Below, piece after piece: positions 3,599-18,181 of a stretch of DNA of 64,000 bases. Position numbers and translations under genes: made by a program. Source of the DNA: an uncultured Lutibacter sp. (GTDB lineage Bacteria; Bacteroidota; Bacteroidia; Flavobacteriales; Flavobacteriaceae); the NCBI RefSeq assembly GCF_947493565.1, contig NZ_CANLRG010000004.1, positions 248,001 through 312,000 on the forward strand, in the 5' to 3' direction. Numbering within the stretch: position 1 is the first letter of the stretch; each line of letters opens with the position of its first letter. The notes under the pieces are model-generated. The model ran no database searches. It had not been told where the DNA came from and worked only from the letters and a program-made list of their open reading frames with translations.

Positions 3599-3666
3599 CG
3601 TAAATAATTACCATAAATTGTAGATTATTATTAAAAAAGAAGAAGTTACTTTGTGAAGTATTCTTA

Positions 3667-3769
3667 GTTATCTTCCCACAAATGTATGCGGTAGAATGTA
3701 GCACCTTCTTTAACAATAAAGGGTTGCTAAGGCTTCATCAGGTCTATTCCCTCTGCCTTTCTTAATAAC
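3667..3769 (-). ncRNA. SAM-I (S-box) riboswitch ahead of metH1-metH2
   Basis: On the minus strand the leader shows the S-box core in order: AAGAAAGGCAGAGGGA, then GATGAAGCCTTAGCAACC, then AAGGTGCTACATTCTACC, closed by a P1 stem GTTAT (3769-3765) with ATAAC (3671-3667). Binding of S-adenosylmethionine is expected to lower metH expression. Downstream of the aptamer a short stem TACTT/AAGTA is followed by a U-rich stretch with six Us, which might be a weak terminator; otherwise control would be translational. The core is nearly identical to the second copy at 15246-15342. Confidence 0.94.
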
Positions 3770-3797
3770 AATTTCAGTTTATTTATGAACTTTTGTG

Positions 3798-11760: not shown

Positions 11761-14700
11761 TTAATTCTTTTCTGCTAGTCTTAATATATCTCCAAAAACA
11801 CCTCGTGCGGTTACTGCAGAACCTGCTCCAGCTCCTTGAATAACAATTGGTTTTTCTCCATACGATTCAGTAAATATTTCAAAAATTGCATCTGCTCCTT
11901 TAATTTGACCTAAAGAACTGTTGGCTGGTACAGAAACTAATTTTACTTCTAAATTTCCTTTATCTTCTTGTAAATTACCAGACAAATCTCCAATATATCT
12001 TAACACATGGTTCTTATCTTGCTCTAATTTTACTTTTTCATAATAAGGGTTTAACTCCTTTAATCTTGTTAAAAATTCAGCTGAGGAACCTTCTCTCAAA
12101 TTCTCTGGAATTAAATTTTGGATTTTAATATCTTCAAACTCATTTTTCAAATCTAATTCTCGAGCTAAAATCAATAATTTTCTAGCCACATCATTTCCGC
12201 ATAAATCCTCTCTTGGGTCGGGCTCAGTAAAACCACTATCAATTGCCTTTTGTAAAACATCGCTAAACTGCTTGTTTTCTTCTGAATAGGTATTGAATAA
12301 AAAACTTAAAGAGCCTGAAAACACTCCTCTTATTCTTGTAATATTTTCACCAGAGTCATGTAATAATTTAATAGTATCAATTAATGGTAGACCCGCTCCT
12401 ACATTTGTTTCATATAAATATGATTTTTTATTTTCTTGCAGTTTTTTTCTCAACTCTTTATAAAATGTATAGCTTAATGTATTGGCAATTTTGTTTGATG
12501 AAATTAAATCAAAACCATTTTCAACCAACTTTATATAATGTTCAACAAAAGAACTACTTGCAGTATTATCTATGGCAATTAAGTTTTCTAAATGATTTTT
12601 TTCTGCAAAATCTATGATATTTTGAACCGAACTGTTAACCTCACTTTGCTCTAAATCTAAAGCCCAATTTTGGGTAACCCCATTTTTGTTTAAAATAGCT
12701 TTTGATGAGTTTACAACAGCAAAAATATTTAGATTGATGTTTTTTCTTTTTAAAATATTTTCTCTGCTTTTTATAACTTGATTGATTAAAGTTCCTCCCA
12801 CTAATCCTTTTCCAAAAATAGCGATGTTGATATTTTTGGAAACTCCAAAAATTTCACCGTGAATTACATTTACTGCTTTATGTAAATCGGATTGATTAAC
12901 AACCAAACATACATTTTCACCAGTAACTGTATTGTTAATTAATATTGGAGTGATATGATTTTTTATCAACGCGCTATAAGGTTGATTAAAAGAATGTAAA
13001 CTTTGTCCGATTATTGAAATAACAGACACTTTTTCAGTTACATAAATTTGACTAATATCTTTAGTTAAAAATTCGTTTTTAAATTCTTTCTCTAAAACAG
13101 TTTTAGCTTTATAACCATTTTTGACATCTACTATAAACCCAATACCTCTTTCAGAAGAGCCTTGTGAAATAATACTAACACTAATATTTTCATTTGCTAA
13201 AGCGGTAAATATTCTACCATCAACACCTACTTTTCCTAACAAACCTCTACCTATCAAGTTTACCAAAGCCACATCTTGCTCTACAGATAATGATTTAATA
13301 CCTCCTTTTTCAGTTTCAGAACCAATTAATGTTCCTTCGCTATCCTCATTAAACGTATTTAAAATACGTAATGGAATATTCTTTTCAATTAAAGGAATAA
13401 TAGTTTTGGCATGTAAAATATTGGCTCCAAAATTCGCCATCTCGTTCGCCTCCTGATATGTTAATTTTTCTATTTTTTTAGAATTCTCAACCAAATCTGG
13501 ATTTGCTGTAAAAATACCATCTACATGTGTGTAATTTTGAAATTCTTCAGCATTTAAAAAATTAGCAATTAATGACGCTGTATAATTACTTCCATTTCTA
13601 CCTAAAGTGGTGGTTTCACCATCTAAATTTGAACCAATAAAACCAGTAACAATTTGTGTAACTTCTTTTGATTGATTTTTAAAATACTCAATTACATTTT
13701 CTTCAGAAATGCTTTCAAAAGGTTGCGCCTTTCCAAATTGATTGTTTGTTTTAATAAGTGTTCTGGTATCAACTAAATTTGCTTGTATCCCTTTTTTAGT
13801 TAACAAGTGAGCGATTAGTTTTCCTGATAAAATTTCTCCTTGAGAAAGTACCTGATCTTTAACTTTAGGACTGTAATCTCCTAATAAATTTACCCCTCTA
13901 AAAATTTCATCTAACAATTGAAACTCTTTCGAAAAATCAGCACTTTCATCAATCTCAGTCTGATATTTTTTTAACTCTTCAAATTCTGAAGTATAAGGCA
14001 ATCCGTTTTTAGCTTTTTCTAAAATAGACTCTAAATGATCTGTGGTTTTACCTCTAGCAGAAACTACCACTACAATGTTTTCATTGTTTTTTATTTTATT
14101 TGAAATGATGGCTAATGTGCTTTCTAAGCCTTTTCCATTTGCTAAAGATTTACCTCCAAATTTTATTACTTTCATTGCTTTTCTTTTAGAACTTTTGTTA
14201 AATATTGGTTCTATTATTTTACCTAGTTGTTTGTATTCTATTAAAAATGCATCATGTCCATGTACCGAGTTAATTTCATTATAAGTAACATTAGGATGCG
14301 TAAGTGCTAATTGTTTATGGGTTTCTTTGTTCTCTTCAGCTGTAAAAAACAAATCAGAATCAACACCAATAATATGAATCGTAGCTTTAATACTATCTAA
14401 AACTTGTTCACTTCTGTCTTTAGTTACATCAATTGTTTTTAATAATTGATTCATTAACTTATAGGCTGATAATTGAAATCGTTCCTGTAATTTTTTACCA
14501 TGATGCAACAACCAACTTTCAACATTAAAAATTTTCAACTCTTCATTTTTAGAACGTTGAAACCGTTCTTTAAAAGACTCTGGTGTTCTGTAACATAACA
14601 TTGCATGCATACGAGCGTCGTGAACTGGATTGCTTGAGTTGGTTAAAAATTGCTCTTGAATTTGACAATTTGCAATTAACCAATCGGTTGATTTCCAATC

Positions 14701-15150
14701 GGTGGCTATTACAATTAAATGTTCTGTAATAGCTGGGTTTAAAACTGCCATTTCCCAAGCTATTCCACCTCCTAAAGAACCTCCTATTAAAGCAAAAAGA
14801 CGTTTAACATTTAATTGTTTCAAACCCAATAAAAATATATTAGCTATATCTCTAGCCTCAAAGTCTTTATAATTTTCAATTACAAAACCATCATAACCAT
14901 TTCCAGGTATATTGAATGCTAAAATTGTGTATAAATTAGTATCGATTACCTTGTTGTCTCCCACCAAATTACTCCACCATCCACTTTTACCTGCAACATT
15001 ACTGTTACCAGTAAGCGCATGGTTTACCAAAACTACTGGAGCGGTATGTAGCTTTTTCCCAAATATTTGGTAAGACAGTTTTAATTCAGAATAGCAATCT
15101 CTTTTTTCCGAATTAAAATTTTGTATGGTTATGTGTTTTAAATTACTCAT
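11761..15150 (-). CDS. Fusion: homoserine O-acetyltransferase (MetX) - aspartate kinase - homoserine dehydrogenase
   Basis: 1129 aa, three enzymes in one frame. Residues 1-~320: alpha/beta-hydrolase MetX domain with VNHALTGNSN, nucleophile Ser in LIGGSLGGGIAWEM (near 124) and a HGHDAFLIEY catalytic His. From ~326: aspartate kinase (MKVIKFGGKSLANGKG, later GRNGSNYTASLIA), two ACT-type regulatory repeats, then from ~768 homoserine dehydrogenase (NIAIFGKGLVGG, GFTEPDPREDLCGNDVARK) ending IQGAGAGSAVTARGVFGD. It covers steps one, three and four from aspartate toward O-acetylhomoserine. A Met at the MetX/kinase junction (14174) could be an internal start. It is transcribed with metZ behind a SAM-I riboswitch. 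Start is the ATG at 15150 (a TTG precedes it). Confidence 0.93.
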   Translation of the reverse strand: MSNLKHITIQNFNSEKRDCYSELKLSYQIFGKKLHTAPVVLVNHALTGNSNVAGKSGWWSNLVGDNKVIDTNLYTILAFNIPGNGYDGFVIENYKDFEARDIANIFLLGLKQLNVKRLFALIGGSLGGGIAWEMAVLNPAITEHLIVIATDWKSTDWLIANCQIQEQFLTNSSNPVHDARMHAMLCYRTPESFKERFQRSKNEELKIFNVESWLLHHGKKLQERFQLSAYKLMNQLLKTIDVTKDRSEQVLDSIKATIHIIGVDSDLFFTAEENKETHKQLALTHPNVTYNEINSVHGHDAFLIEYKQLGKIIEPIFNKSSKRKAMKVIKFGGKSLANGKGLESTLAIISNKIKNNENIVVVVSARGKTTDHLESILEKAKNGLPYTSEFEELKKYQTEIDESADFSKEFQLLDEIFRGVNLLGDYSPKVKDQVLSQGEILSGKLIAHLLTKKGIQANLVDTRTLIKTNNQFGKAQPFESISEENVIEYFKNQSKEVTQIVTGFIGSNLDGETTTLGRNGSNYTASLIANFLNAEEFQNYTHVDGIFTANPDLVENSKKIEKLTYQEANEMANFGANILHAKTIIPLIEKNIPLRILNTFNEDSEGTLIGSETEKGGIKSLSVEQDVALVNLIGRGLLGKVGVDGRIFTALANENISVSIISQGSSERGIGFIVDVKNGYKAKTVLEKEFKNEFLTKDISQIYVTEKVSVISIIGQSLHSFNQPYSALIKNHITPILINNTVTGENVCLVVNQSDLHKAVNVIHGEIFGVSKNINIAIFGKGLVGGTLINQVIKSRENILKRKNINLNIFAVVNSSKAILNKNGVTQNWALDLEQSEVNSSVQNIIDFAEKNHLENLIAIDNTASSSFVEHYIKLVENGFDLISSNKIANTLSYTFYKELRKKLQENKKSYLYETNVGAGLPLIDTIKLLHDSGENITRIRGVFSGSLSFLFNTYSEENKQFSDVLQKAIDSGFTEPDPREDLCGNDVARKLLILARELDLKNEFEDIKIQNLIPENLREGSSAEFLTRLKELNPYYEKVKLEQDKNHVLRYIGDLSGNLQEDKGNLEVKLVSVPANSSLGQIKGADAIFEIFTESYGEKPIVIQGAGAGSAVTARGVFGDILRLAEKN

Positions 15151-15165
15151 CAATAATTATTTATT

Positions 15166-15183: not shown

Positions 15184-15245
15184 TTATTTGATTAATTATT
15201 GTTAAGAAAAAATGCAGAAAATTACTAGAAATGTAATTTAGTTGA

Positions 15246-15342
15246 GTTATCTATCCTTAATGGGTAGAATTTAGCACCTTCTTTAAAGTTAAAGGGTTGC
15301 TAAGGCTTCACTGGGTCTATTCCCTCTGCCTTTCTTGATAAC
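15246..15342 (-). ncRNA. SAM-I (S-box) riboswitch ahead of MetX-fusion/metZ
   Basis: Same core as the metH copy: AAGAAAGGCAGAGGGAATAG, then GTGAAGCCTTAGCAACC, then AAGGTGCTAAATTCTACC, closed by GTTATC (15342-15337) with GATAAC (15251-15246). The P4 arm is shorter than in the metH copy. It should repress aspartate-to-homocysteine flux when SAM is high. Promoter TTG-N20-TTAATTTG lies just upstream. Confidence 0.94.
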
Positions 15343-15371
15343 AATAGTCAATAAATTTATGAACTAAAGCG

Positions 15372-16733: not shown

Positions 16734-16779
16734 AATAAAAAAAGTCCCTTTGGTTTTAGGTATTACCAAAGGGACTTTT
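16734..16779 (-). terminator. Intrinsic terminator 2 of the metY leader (attenuator)
   Basis: On the minus strand a 14-bp perfect stem (16779-16766 with 16753-16740, core GTCCCTTTGG/CCAAAGGGAC) with a 12-nt loop, followed by seven Us. It stands 31 nt upstream of the metY ATG and 22 nt downstream of leader peptide 2, so it must be read through for metY expression. The strand of leader 2 carrying GGTATTGCC (16818-16810) can pair with GGTAATACC (16767-16759), which includes two bases of the stem and most of the loop. Confidence 0.85.
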
Positions 16780-16801
16780 ATCTAAGAGATTTTTATTCCA
16801 T

Positions 16802-16900
16802 TTAATTTAGGCAATACCATTTCATTATGCTACGCATTATTTGCATTTGCATTGTCATACAACATCGGTTGCATATATTTTTTTGGAATGTAAATTTCAT
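16802..16900 (-). CDS. Met/Cys-rich leader peptide 2 of metY
   Basis: 32 codons starting ATG at 16900, stop TAA at 16804-16802. Six of 32 residues are Met (1, 15, 17, 19, 22, 26) and four are Cys (10, 13, 14, 30), including NRCCMTMQMQIM in the middle. No homology is claimed; the composition, its place between two terminators and the absence of any other role point to a ribosome-stalling control peptide. The start codon is 13 nt past the U-run of terminator 1, and no separate promoter is visible, so it should be made only from transcripts that passed terminator 1. Confidence 0.75.
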   Translation of the reverse strand: MKFTFQKNICNRCCMTMQMQIMRSIMKWYCLN

Positions 16901-16912
16901 TTTTTGTTTATT

Positions 16913-16945
16913 GATAAAAAAAGCCTCTGAAAATTCAGAGGCTTT
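16913..16945 (-). terminator. Intrinsic terminator 1 of the metY leader (attenuator)
   Basis: Minus strand: 11-bp perfect stem AAAGCCTCTGA/TCAGAGGCTTT (16945-16935 with 16930-16920), 4-nt loop, then a run of Us. It follows leader peptide 1 by 26 nt. An alternative hairpin is possible: CAGAGG (16991-16986, inside the leader ORF) pairs with CCTCTG (16941-16936, the terminator's 5' arm), stacked near a second helix ATTGTTT (16980-16974) with AAACAAT (16954-16948). The two folds exclude each other. Confidence 0.85.
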
Positions 16946-16971
16946 AAATTGTTTGATATTATTTTTAATTT

Positions 16972-17043
16972 TTAAACAATAGTGTCCTCTGCGTAATTTT
17001 TACACATCATAATTGCACACATATTCATCTTGTTTAAAATCAT
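16972..17043 (-). CDS. Met/Cys-rich leader peptide 1 of metY
   Basis: 23 codons from ATG at 17043 to TAA at 16974-16972. Met at residues 1, 6, 8, 12, 13 and Cys at 9 and 14; the densest part reads KMNMCAIMMCK. The Met-Met-Cys codons at 17010-17002 lie about one ribosome footprint before CAGAGG (16991), so stalling there would leave the antiterminator strand free, while reaching the stop codon would cover it. This is the geometry of classical amino-acid attenuators. It begins about 13 nt after the predicted transcription start. Confidence 0.78.
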   Translation of the reverse strand: MILNKMNMCAIMMCKNYAEDTIV

Positions 17044-17062
17044 TTTTTAATTTTTGATGGTA

Positions 17063-17093
17063 CAAAAGTAATGACAATTTTTAATTTTCCAAA
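17063..17093 (-). promoter_or_regulatory. Promoter of the metY leader
   Basis: Minus strand TTTG at 17093-17090, 19-nt spacer, TACTTTTG at 17070-17063: a full match to the Bacteroidota consensus. Start of transcription is expected near 17057, just upstream of leader peptide 1 and downstream of proC. Confidence 0.8.
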
Positions 17094-18083: not shown

Positions 18084-18096
18084 CAGTCTAAAATTT

Positions 18097-18146
18097 AAGA
18101 GGAAGGATTTGAACTGATTGCAACCTCGTAAAAAAATGCTAAAGCA
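18097..18146 (+). ncRNA. SAM-II-type riboswitch ahead of metK
   Basis: The leader contains the SAM-II landmarks: P1 GAGG (18099-18102) with CCTC (18124-18127), the loop GATTTGAACTGATTGCAA between them, and the 3' tail CGTAAAAAAATGCTAAAG whose GCTAAAG (18138-18144) forms the pseudoknot in known members. It should lower metK when SAM is high. The downstream 60 nt contain competing complements to two of its parts (see the alternative structure). Identification is by motif recall, not a covariance search. Confidence 0.82.
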
Positions 18147-18181
18147 GTAATTATTTACTTCCTTTAGCGACCAAAGCAATC
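18116..18181 (+). promoter_or_regulatory. Alternative hairpin competing with the SAM-II fold
   Basis: GCTAAAG (18138-18144, aptamer tail) is complementary to CTTTAGC (18162-18168), and GATTGC (18116-18121, aptamer loop) to GCAATC (18176-18181). The two helices are nested, so they can form together as one extended hairpin, and both use bases needed for the aptamer. This is a plausible ligand-free state. It ends 36 nt before the metK ATG and has no U-run, which argues against simple termination. Confidence 0.6.

Follow-up and report, generated by a model that had tools for sequence, protein, structure and literature searches.

The metY gene of this uncultured Lutibacter, which encodes O-acetylhomoserine aminocarboxypropyltransferase, is probably controlled by two trp-type ribosome-mediated transcription attenuators in series, a reading to which we assign a probability of about four in five. 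In the window, which is the whole 64,000-nucleotide stretch of DNA that was analysed, the minus strand between the end of proC (17122) and metY carries in order a promoter motif, leader 1, terminator 1, leader 2 and terminator 2 (Table 1). The first-pass annotation had proposed this arrangement, and each of its elements was recovered in place. Sequence and comparison with related loci bring out the coding constraint on the two leader ORFs, the two arms that compete with the terminators, the spacing of these parts and their conservation, and tandem leader-peptide attenuation behind one promoter appears well supported by them.

The element at the upstream end, which we take to be a promoter from its agreement with the Bacteroidota promoter consensus, contains the only full TAnnTTTG found in a scan of the proC-metY interval of the window. 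Two 5-of-6 promoter matches also occur in this interval, one inside leader 1 and the other inside terminator 2. The predicted folds of terminator 1 and terminator 2 have free energies of -16.2 kcal/mol (z -5.5) and -21.5 kcal/mol (z -6.3), respectively. Coverage of the element by an already published family was tested with an Rfam scan of positions 16734-17093, in which no family, SAM-I, SAM-II and T-box included, reached its gathering score. The best match below gathering is Phe_leader on leader 1 (33.5 bits against a cutoff of 55, E 0.00076), an attenuator family in its own right.

Three kinds of RNA sensor lie in the neighbourhood of metY in the window, namely the Met leaders, SAM-I and SAM-II (Table 1). 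At positions 11761-15153 of the minus strand, MetX is fused in frame with a bifunctional aspartokinase/homoserine dehydrogenase in a protein of 1130 aa.

Table 1. Features of the metY upstream region and of the neighbouring riboswitches, in window positions.
Feature	Position	Strand	Description
Promoter motif	17093-17063	-	TTTG at 17093-17090, 19-nt spacer after TTG, TACTTTTG (TAnnTTTG) at 17070-17063
Leader ORF 1	17043-16972	-	MILNKMNMCAIMMCKNYAEDTIV
Antiterminator 1, 5' arm	16991-16986	-	CAGAGG, within leader ORF 1; partner 16941-16936
Terminator 1	16945-16920	-	11-bp stem, T tract to about 16914
Leader ORF 2	16900-16802	-	MKFTFQKNICNRCCMTMQMQIMRSIMKWYCLN
Antiterminator 2, 5' arm	16818-16810	-	GGTATTGCC, within leader ORF 2; partner 16767-16759
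Terminator 2	16779-16740	-	Hairpin, then T tract
metY (downstream gene)	16703-15411	-	NCBIfam TIGR01326, 652.8 bits, cutoff 495.1
SAM-I riboswitch	15244-15344	-	Upstream of metX-aspartokinase/homoserine dehydrogenase
SAM-I riboswitch	3665-3771	-	Upstream of MetH-like homocysteine methyltransferase domain (named by ORF reading)
SAM-II riboswitch	18093-18152	+	Upstream of metK

Conservation within Lutibacter

A search of 60 genomes, with the genome of the window counted among them, found metY in 34 (E <= 1e-100). From the same genus, 28 loci were fetched (fetched metY or leader loci are numbered with L and the genomes compared with G), of which L017 ends at a contig edge, leaving 27 with complete upstream DNA. 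Both leaders and both terminators are kept in all 27 of these loci, and a TAnnTTTG stands 27-29 nt upstream of the leader 1 ATG in every one. Two further Lutibacter loci, in G004 and G021, also have both leaders and both terminators, with terminator 2 of G004 read by eye. The spacing is extended at some loci: about 225-250 extra nt lie between terminator 2 and metY in L024, L030 and L031, where the insertion in L024 is repeat-like, and about 77 extra nt lie between terminator 1 and leader 2 in L032 and L033.

Model R1, which comprises leader 1 and terminator 1, and model R3, which comprises leader 2 and terminator 2, each match 29 of the 38 genus genomes. R1 misses G027, where the contig ends; G004 escapes R3 in the whole-genome search, although its fetched stretch gives a score of 39.9 bits with this model. 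Neither element was found in eight genus genomes; seven of these also gave no metY match (G007, G011, G015, G017, G025, G033 and G034), and the eighth, G499, lies outside the metY search set. In the genome of the window, the leader 1 model has one strong match (E 3.5e-16), and the next seven matches (L119-L125) fall on gene ends or intergenic stretches with ordinary terminators behind them, with no Met-rich leader among them.

Leader reading frames, antiterminator arms and the Met signal

Both leader ORFs look translated because gaps within them come in multiples of three and because their ATG triplets are in frame. In the 27-row Lutibacter alignments, all 26 gap runs inside leader ORF 1 and all 29 inside leader ORF 2 are multiples of three, although these represent few separate events, with 26 and 25 of the runs, respectively, being one shared gap each. 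Gaps 3' of the ORFs also have lengths of 1, 2, 4 and 5 nt, and no premature stop occurs in the 27 rows of either leader. Wider counts were taken from 22 representatives per leader, drawn from several genera, with Flavobacterium and the Lutibacter group each contributing more than one. Among these, ATG triplets are distributed over the three frames as 91:3:3 in leader 1 and 140:1:11 in leader 2. The corresponding distributions for TGY are 43:50:23 and 91:71:4, so that Cys is not clearly enriched in the ORF frame, a signal that is weak in part because TGY triplets overlap ATG.

The 3' end of each ORF carries a predicted antiterminator arm that is fitted to its own terminator over foreign ones. 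With terminators shuffled among the 22 representatives, the duplex between an arm and its own terminator averages -12.9 kcal/mol against -10.4 kcal/mol permuted for leader 1 (0/20000, n=22), and -13.7 kcal/mol against -10.9 kcal/mol permuted for leader 2 (0/20000, n=22), in a permutation that ignores phylogeny. L089 for leader 1 and L056 for leader 2 were left out of these tests because the scripted search found no terminator in range, and leader 2 of L156, with a duplex of -2.6 kcal/mol, clearly departs from the rule.

The antiterminator 1 fold (16992-16935) has a predicted free energy of -12.8 kcal/mol (z -4.0). Arm 1 is paired in 92% of cells in the Lutibacter alignment, with no covariation there, and is weakened in L014, L018 and L021. 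Between genera, the leader 1 arm and terminator pair GCAGAGG/CCTCTGC changes to GCAGCG/CGCTGC and to GCAAGGGC/GCCCTTGC, and L227, read by eye, has GCGAAGGC/GCCTTTGC. Arm 2 has as its partner GGTAATACC at the top of terminator 2, and the antiterminator 2 fold is predicted at -14.1 kcal/mol (z -3.2), with AAATGG also pairing with part of the terminator 5' arm to form an inner helix. This arm is paired in 100% of Lutibacter cells, where one G-C pair is changed to A-U on both sides, and each terminator stem has one compensatory pair in the Lutibacter alignments. In the window, antiterminator 2 occupies mainly the loop and the top of terminator 2, and mutual exclusion at leader 2 would therefore rest partly on the weaker inner helix. 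A pseudoknot between arm 2 and the terminator 2 loop was set aside because the nested antiterminator fold also uses part of the 5' arm. As the full terminator outdoes its antiterminator in free energy at both leaders, antitermination would have to be kinetic.

The position of the arms relative to the codons was set against the generally known reach of a ribosome. A Met codon lies 14-19 nt upstream of the arm in all 22 leader 1 representatives, whereas the reading frame of the arm differs between genera, with GCA GAG in L076 and CCG CAG AGG in L080 and L107. The leader 1 arm of L073 is located 3' of the stop codon, and in L211, which has a longer predicted duplex, the Met at this distance does not come from the Met pair. 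When Met and Cys codons are both considered, all 22 leader 1 representatives have one at 13-19 nt before the arm, as do 20 of the 22 for leader 2 (the exceptions being L101 and L107), with the leader 2 distances carrying little weight because many Met and Cys codons occur there.

These observations bear on an alternative in which the RNA is a riboswitch or is bound by a protein, so that its structure matters and the ORFs are untranslated. Conserved hairpins would be expected from such an RNA, and a SAM riboswitch does occupy the same place before most of the other metY genes surveyed in the family. However, reading frame and Met codons are conserved in addition to the hairpins, the frame of the arm changes between genera while its distance from the Met codon stays constant, and the Rfam scan of the region placed no family at gathering score. 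We consider an untranslated regulatory RNA highly improbable.

For the translated leaders that we favour, conservation suggests that Met is the constant and main signal, and that Cys varies and is sometimes missing. Leader 1 is composed of 18.5% Met and 8.7% Cys and leader 2 of 21.8% Met and 14.2% Cys across the 22 representatives of each. All 22 leader 1 representatives have a Met-Met pair, as do 20 of the 22 for leader 2, and Cys is absent from three of the 22 in leader 1 and from one of the 22 in leader 2. Within Lutibacter, leader 1 has Met-Cys in 27 of 27 rows and Met-Met-Cys in 26 (L011 has Leu), and leader 2 has three invariant Met codons and one that is nearly invariant, its sole well-kept Cys lying inside the antiterminator arm. 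In the Lutibacter genome G004, which is outside the alignments, there is no Cys in either leader. A sensor of Cys only is ruled out by the constant Met pair, by leaders that have no Cys and by the Cys-free G004. The Cys codons probably add a second input, the weight of which would vary across species.

The first-pass annotation had suggested that a different order of Cys and Met codons may let the two leaders respond to different tRNAs. In one form of serial attenuation, leader 1 would read chiefly tRNA-Cys and leader 2 chiefly tRNA-Met, making the pair a two-signal gate. The Met-Cys found in every Lutibacter row of leader 1, a window Cys codon 13 nt before the arm, and a Lutibacter leader 2 that keeps its Met columns and has no Cys upstream of the arm would all fit such a division. 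However, what is constant in leader 1 across genera is the Met pair, with three of the 22 representatives having no Cys, and in Flavobacterium and Kordia both Met and Cys are abundant in leader 2. The Cys-free leaders of G004 and the TGY counts, which show no clear frame enrichment, also argue against a split between Cys and Met, and we regard this division as unlikely. The weight of Cys does differ between the leaders and between genera, and Met codons are present in both units; because Cys is variable or missing and not clearly enriched in frame, any reading of different tRNAs would be a difference of degree.

Leaders and riboswitches at metY across the family and beyond

In a survey of named genomes, the metY loci nearest to the query, the best 80 of 591, were sorted by hand. 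Upstream of these 80 genes there is a SAM-I riboswitch in 39 cases, a SAM-II riboswitch in one (L100), Met/Cys leaders in 39 and neither in one (L046), and at none of the 80 do a riboswitch and leaders occur together at one metY. The 39 leader loci comprise 21 that are tandem, 17 with leader 2 only and one with leader 1 only, and two gates are thus not essential everywhere among these best 80 of 591. The tandem loci include L081, from Flavobacterium psychrophilum, in which leader 2 is kept and leader 1 seems decayed, with the Met pair lost and the frame still open at terminator 1. The script missed the second terminator in L039 and L050, and L056 has 943 nt of upstream DNA only. In L066, a Flavobacterium locus with others like it, the stretch from terminator 2 to metY contains a small ORF of some 60 codons.

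The same loci bear on the number of promoters. A promoter motif is found within 80 nt upstream of leader 1 in 15 of the 21 named tandem loci from the best 80 of 591. If a second promoter served leader 2, the two attenuators would be independent and act in parallel rather than in series, and such a promoter may exist in L078 and L090, two Flavobacterium loci with long gaps of 134 and 169 nt, where TACATTTA with an upstream TTTG lies between terminator 1 and leader 2. A similar motif was seen by eye before leader 2 of L066, which has leader 2 only. In contrast, the gap between the terminator 1 stem and leader 2 in the window is 19 nt and contains no 5-of-6 promoter match, TAnnTTTG is absent from this gap in all 27 Lutibacter loci, and neither TAnnTTTG nor TAnnTTTA occurs in it in 19 of the 21 named tandem loci (the last 18 nt of L096 being unscanned). 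Parallel control is, in our view, quite improbable. The earlier statement that no second promoter is visible holds for the window and for the 27 complete Lutibacter loci, and gives way in two of the 21 named tandem loci, the long-gap Flavobacterium pair.

A survey of the family covered 136 metY loci, with one genome per genus and without the two Lutibacter, G065 (contig end) and the partial G093 and G116. SAM-I lies upstream of metY in 108 of the 136. A detector of short Met/Cys-rich ORFs with a terminator behind them, applied to known strands with equal thresholds for both groups, identified leaders at 0 of the 108 SAM-I loci and at 12 of the 28 others (Fisher p 6e-10, uncorrected for kinship). 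In these data, leaders and the SAM-I riboswitch exclude each other at metY. Nine of the 12 detected loci are tandem (L133, L147, L190, L197, L207, L211, L213, L227 and L275, with leader 2 of L133 and L275 read by eye), and the other three have only leader 1 (L243, L276 and L281). Among the remaining 16 of the 28, L261 has SAM-II on the gene strand. The SAM-I match of L145 is downstream of metY, and this locus was therefore counted among the 28. It has a leader 1-like ORF, MKFYMQMCSNIMCRIIL, with two Met-Cys pairs, an imperfect hairpin and T tract, and an R1 score of 25.6 bits; this leader is perhaps decaying.

The first-pass annotation had proposed a search of Bacteroidota for tandem Met/Cys-rich ORF-terminator units, and these were found in about ten genera of the family and in two other families. 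The loci from the other families are L036, from the same order and read by eye, and L159, from another order, both with tandem Met-rich leaders before metY. Their metY genes are 72% and 68% similar to the query, respectively, which is unusually high, and horizontal transfer is therefore possible. The class-level set has 30 loci including L001, 24 of them from other families, among which the reading of leaders covers L159. A SAM-I-like match lies upstream in 16 of the 23 other-family loci L160-L182. On a quick metY tree, in which 24 of 81 inner branches are open, the riboswitch/leader state changes at least seven times, and the well-supported branches alone force two SAM-I label changes.

Elements were also sought without gene information, with a pattern built from known cases that consists of ATGATG, the arm and the terminator 5' arm. 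Among 328 whole family genomes, this pattern found 14 distinct elements, each in a different genome, and 0 in the reversed control; it is silent on frequency because it missed many known cases. Eight of the 14 were known beforehand (the window, G081, G087, G143, G151, G169, G210 and G182), and the leaders of G671 are the same as those of L044. Twelve elements are upstream of metY; of the other two, L307 breaks off once both leaders have been passed, and L296 precedes a SAM-I riboswitch and metX. In L296 (G182:C1, near 1459511), a leader 1-type Met unit is followed by the riboswitch (Rfam 73.4 bits) and then by metX, so that a leader attenuator would stand in series with a SAM riboswitch, a predicted natural composite of charged-tRNA and SAM sensing. 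Separately, an additional match of the leader 1 model within the genus, L293 (G029:C80:6072-6200), has a single leader 1-type unit, MNSIMCNMTIMMWKISAE, and a terminator before a TonB-dependent-receptor-like gene, a name read from sequence; the G029 assembly has 5% contamination and this contig is possibly a contaminant.

The pattern loci help to judge whether terminator 1 merely ends proC, with ORF 1 accidental and metY under leader 2 alone from an unrecognised promoter. proC ends about 180 nt upstream of terminator 1, and 17 of the best 80 of 591 named loci do with leader 2 alone, as this explanation would have it. However, in eight of the 14 pattern loci (L297, L298, L301 and L303-L307) the upstream-side neighbour is metK on the opposite strand, so that terminator 1 has no upstream gene in the same direction to end, and leader 1 and terminator 1 are nevertheless present. 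The coding constraint on leader ORF 1 also argues against an accidental ORF, and a promoter motif precedes leader 1 both in the window, where it lies downstream of proC, and, at 27-29 nt, in all 27 Lutibacter loci. We give this explanation almost no weight.

Proposed mechanism and comparison with known systems

In the serial attenuation that we propose, RNA polymerase would start at the promoter and transcribe leader 1. When charged tRNA-Met (and tRNA-Cys) is ample, the ribosome would pass Met-Met-Cys and cover CAGAGG near the stop codon, terminator 1 would form and transcription would end. When charging is low, the ribosome would stall at Met-Met(-Cys), 13-19 nt before the arm, and the arm could then pair with the 5' half of terminator 1 and allow read-through. 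A second decision would follow at leader 2, with its several Met codons and the arm GGTATTGCC, and terminator 2, so that full transcription of metY would occur only after both terminators had been passed. We infer the stalling at uncharged tRNA, the coupling of transcription to translation, the order of events and the logic of the gate. Because two serial terminators should multiply leakage, the two gates would be expected to give tighter repression or a steeper response, the latter as the first-pass annotation had anticipated.

A broader reading, for which we see the odds as even, is that two unrelated sensors, a SAM riboswitch responding to the end product and a serial Met-tRNA attenuator pair responding to charging, replace each other at metY of Flavobacteriaceae, an exchange that the metY tree suggests took place several times. 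The pair would be a multiplicative gate that needs two independent stalls, and in at least one genus a leader unit before SAM-I would subject metX to a gate for both charged tRNA and SAM. Across one family, the same gene would have exchanged a metabolite riboswitch and presumed tRNA-charge sensing, and the natural single-leader, double-leader and leader-plus-riboswitch forms provide material for comparison. As ribosome-mediated attenuation needs transcription-translation coupling, the metY leaders may also offer a handle on how tight this coupling is in Bacteroidota, a phylum that makes little use of Shine-Dalgarno sites.

Ribosome-mediated attenuators of amino-acid operons are classically of the trp, his, thr, leu and phe type. 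Like the metY units, the trp-type attenuators have a short ORF with codons for the amino acid of the pathway, an intrinsic terminator and an arm at the 3' end of the ORF just past the stalled ribosome. The Lutibacter case differs in its predicted Met signal, accompanied by Cys, in its occurrence in Bacteroidota and in having two complete units in series. The SAM-I (S-box) and SAM-II riboswitches hold the same place before metY in most of the surveyed genera and serve the same pathway, but with a metabolite aptamer rather than translated ORFs. ORFs with Cys runs upstream of mycobacterial cys operons were reportedly described by Canestrari in 2020.

Several published systems share single features with the metY leaders. 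The uORFC-8-2 motif at cysS of Rhodobacterales has Cys codons in a short ORF (PMC8632094), and Cys-run ORFs occur upstream of cys operons in mycobacteria, with no conserved terminator hairpin according to the passage concerned (PMC1262725). Both resemble the metY leaders in placing Cys codons in a short ORF near Cys genes, but as presented there they are single units and belong to other phyla (PMC8632094, PMC1262725). Within the same family, strong clues for leader-peptide attenuation were described before amino-acid operons of Flavobacterium psychrophilum, for example pheA and hisG, in a section whose text names neither metY nor a tandem arrangement (PMC9723704). The Xanthomonas SAM-I riboswitch also binds uncharged initiator tRNA and so brings SAM and Met-tRNA information together on a met transcript, but it does this by direct tRNA binding and translational control, and the passage describing it mentions no leader peptide (PMC7270179). 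The rimP-leader has a second terminator in tandem in several Gammaproteobacteria, with a possible antiterminator, and is similar to the metY region in having two tandem terminators before one gene, but its entry describes no leader peptide (PMC2965389).

The closest parallel is the mgtCBR leader of Salmonella, in which tandem attenuators in one leader respond additively to ATP and proline (PMC3641672). In the open-licence literature searched, no Met leader-peptide attenuator was recognised, nor any tandem leader-peptide attenuator besides mgtCBR, and the suggestion that a tandem Met/Cys leader is undescribed thus stands for the Met units but not for tandem attenuation as such (PMC3641672). Both systems have one promoter and two short ORFs in a single leader, with alternative structures for each ORF, whereas the metY leaders are both Met-rich, each has its own terminator hairpin and T tract, they precede a biosynthetic gene and they occur in about ten genera (PMC3641672). 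Leader-peptide attenuation, which is classical, and the tandem principle are therefore already known, and, set against the published passages cited here, what is new is the predicted series of Met units at metY (PMC3641672). The authors of the mgtCBR work call their own tandem case a singular example (PMC3641672); if our reading is true, the metY leaders would be a serial attenuator that recurs within one amino-acid pathway.
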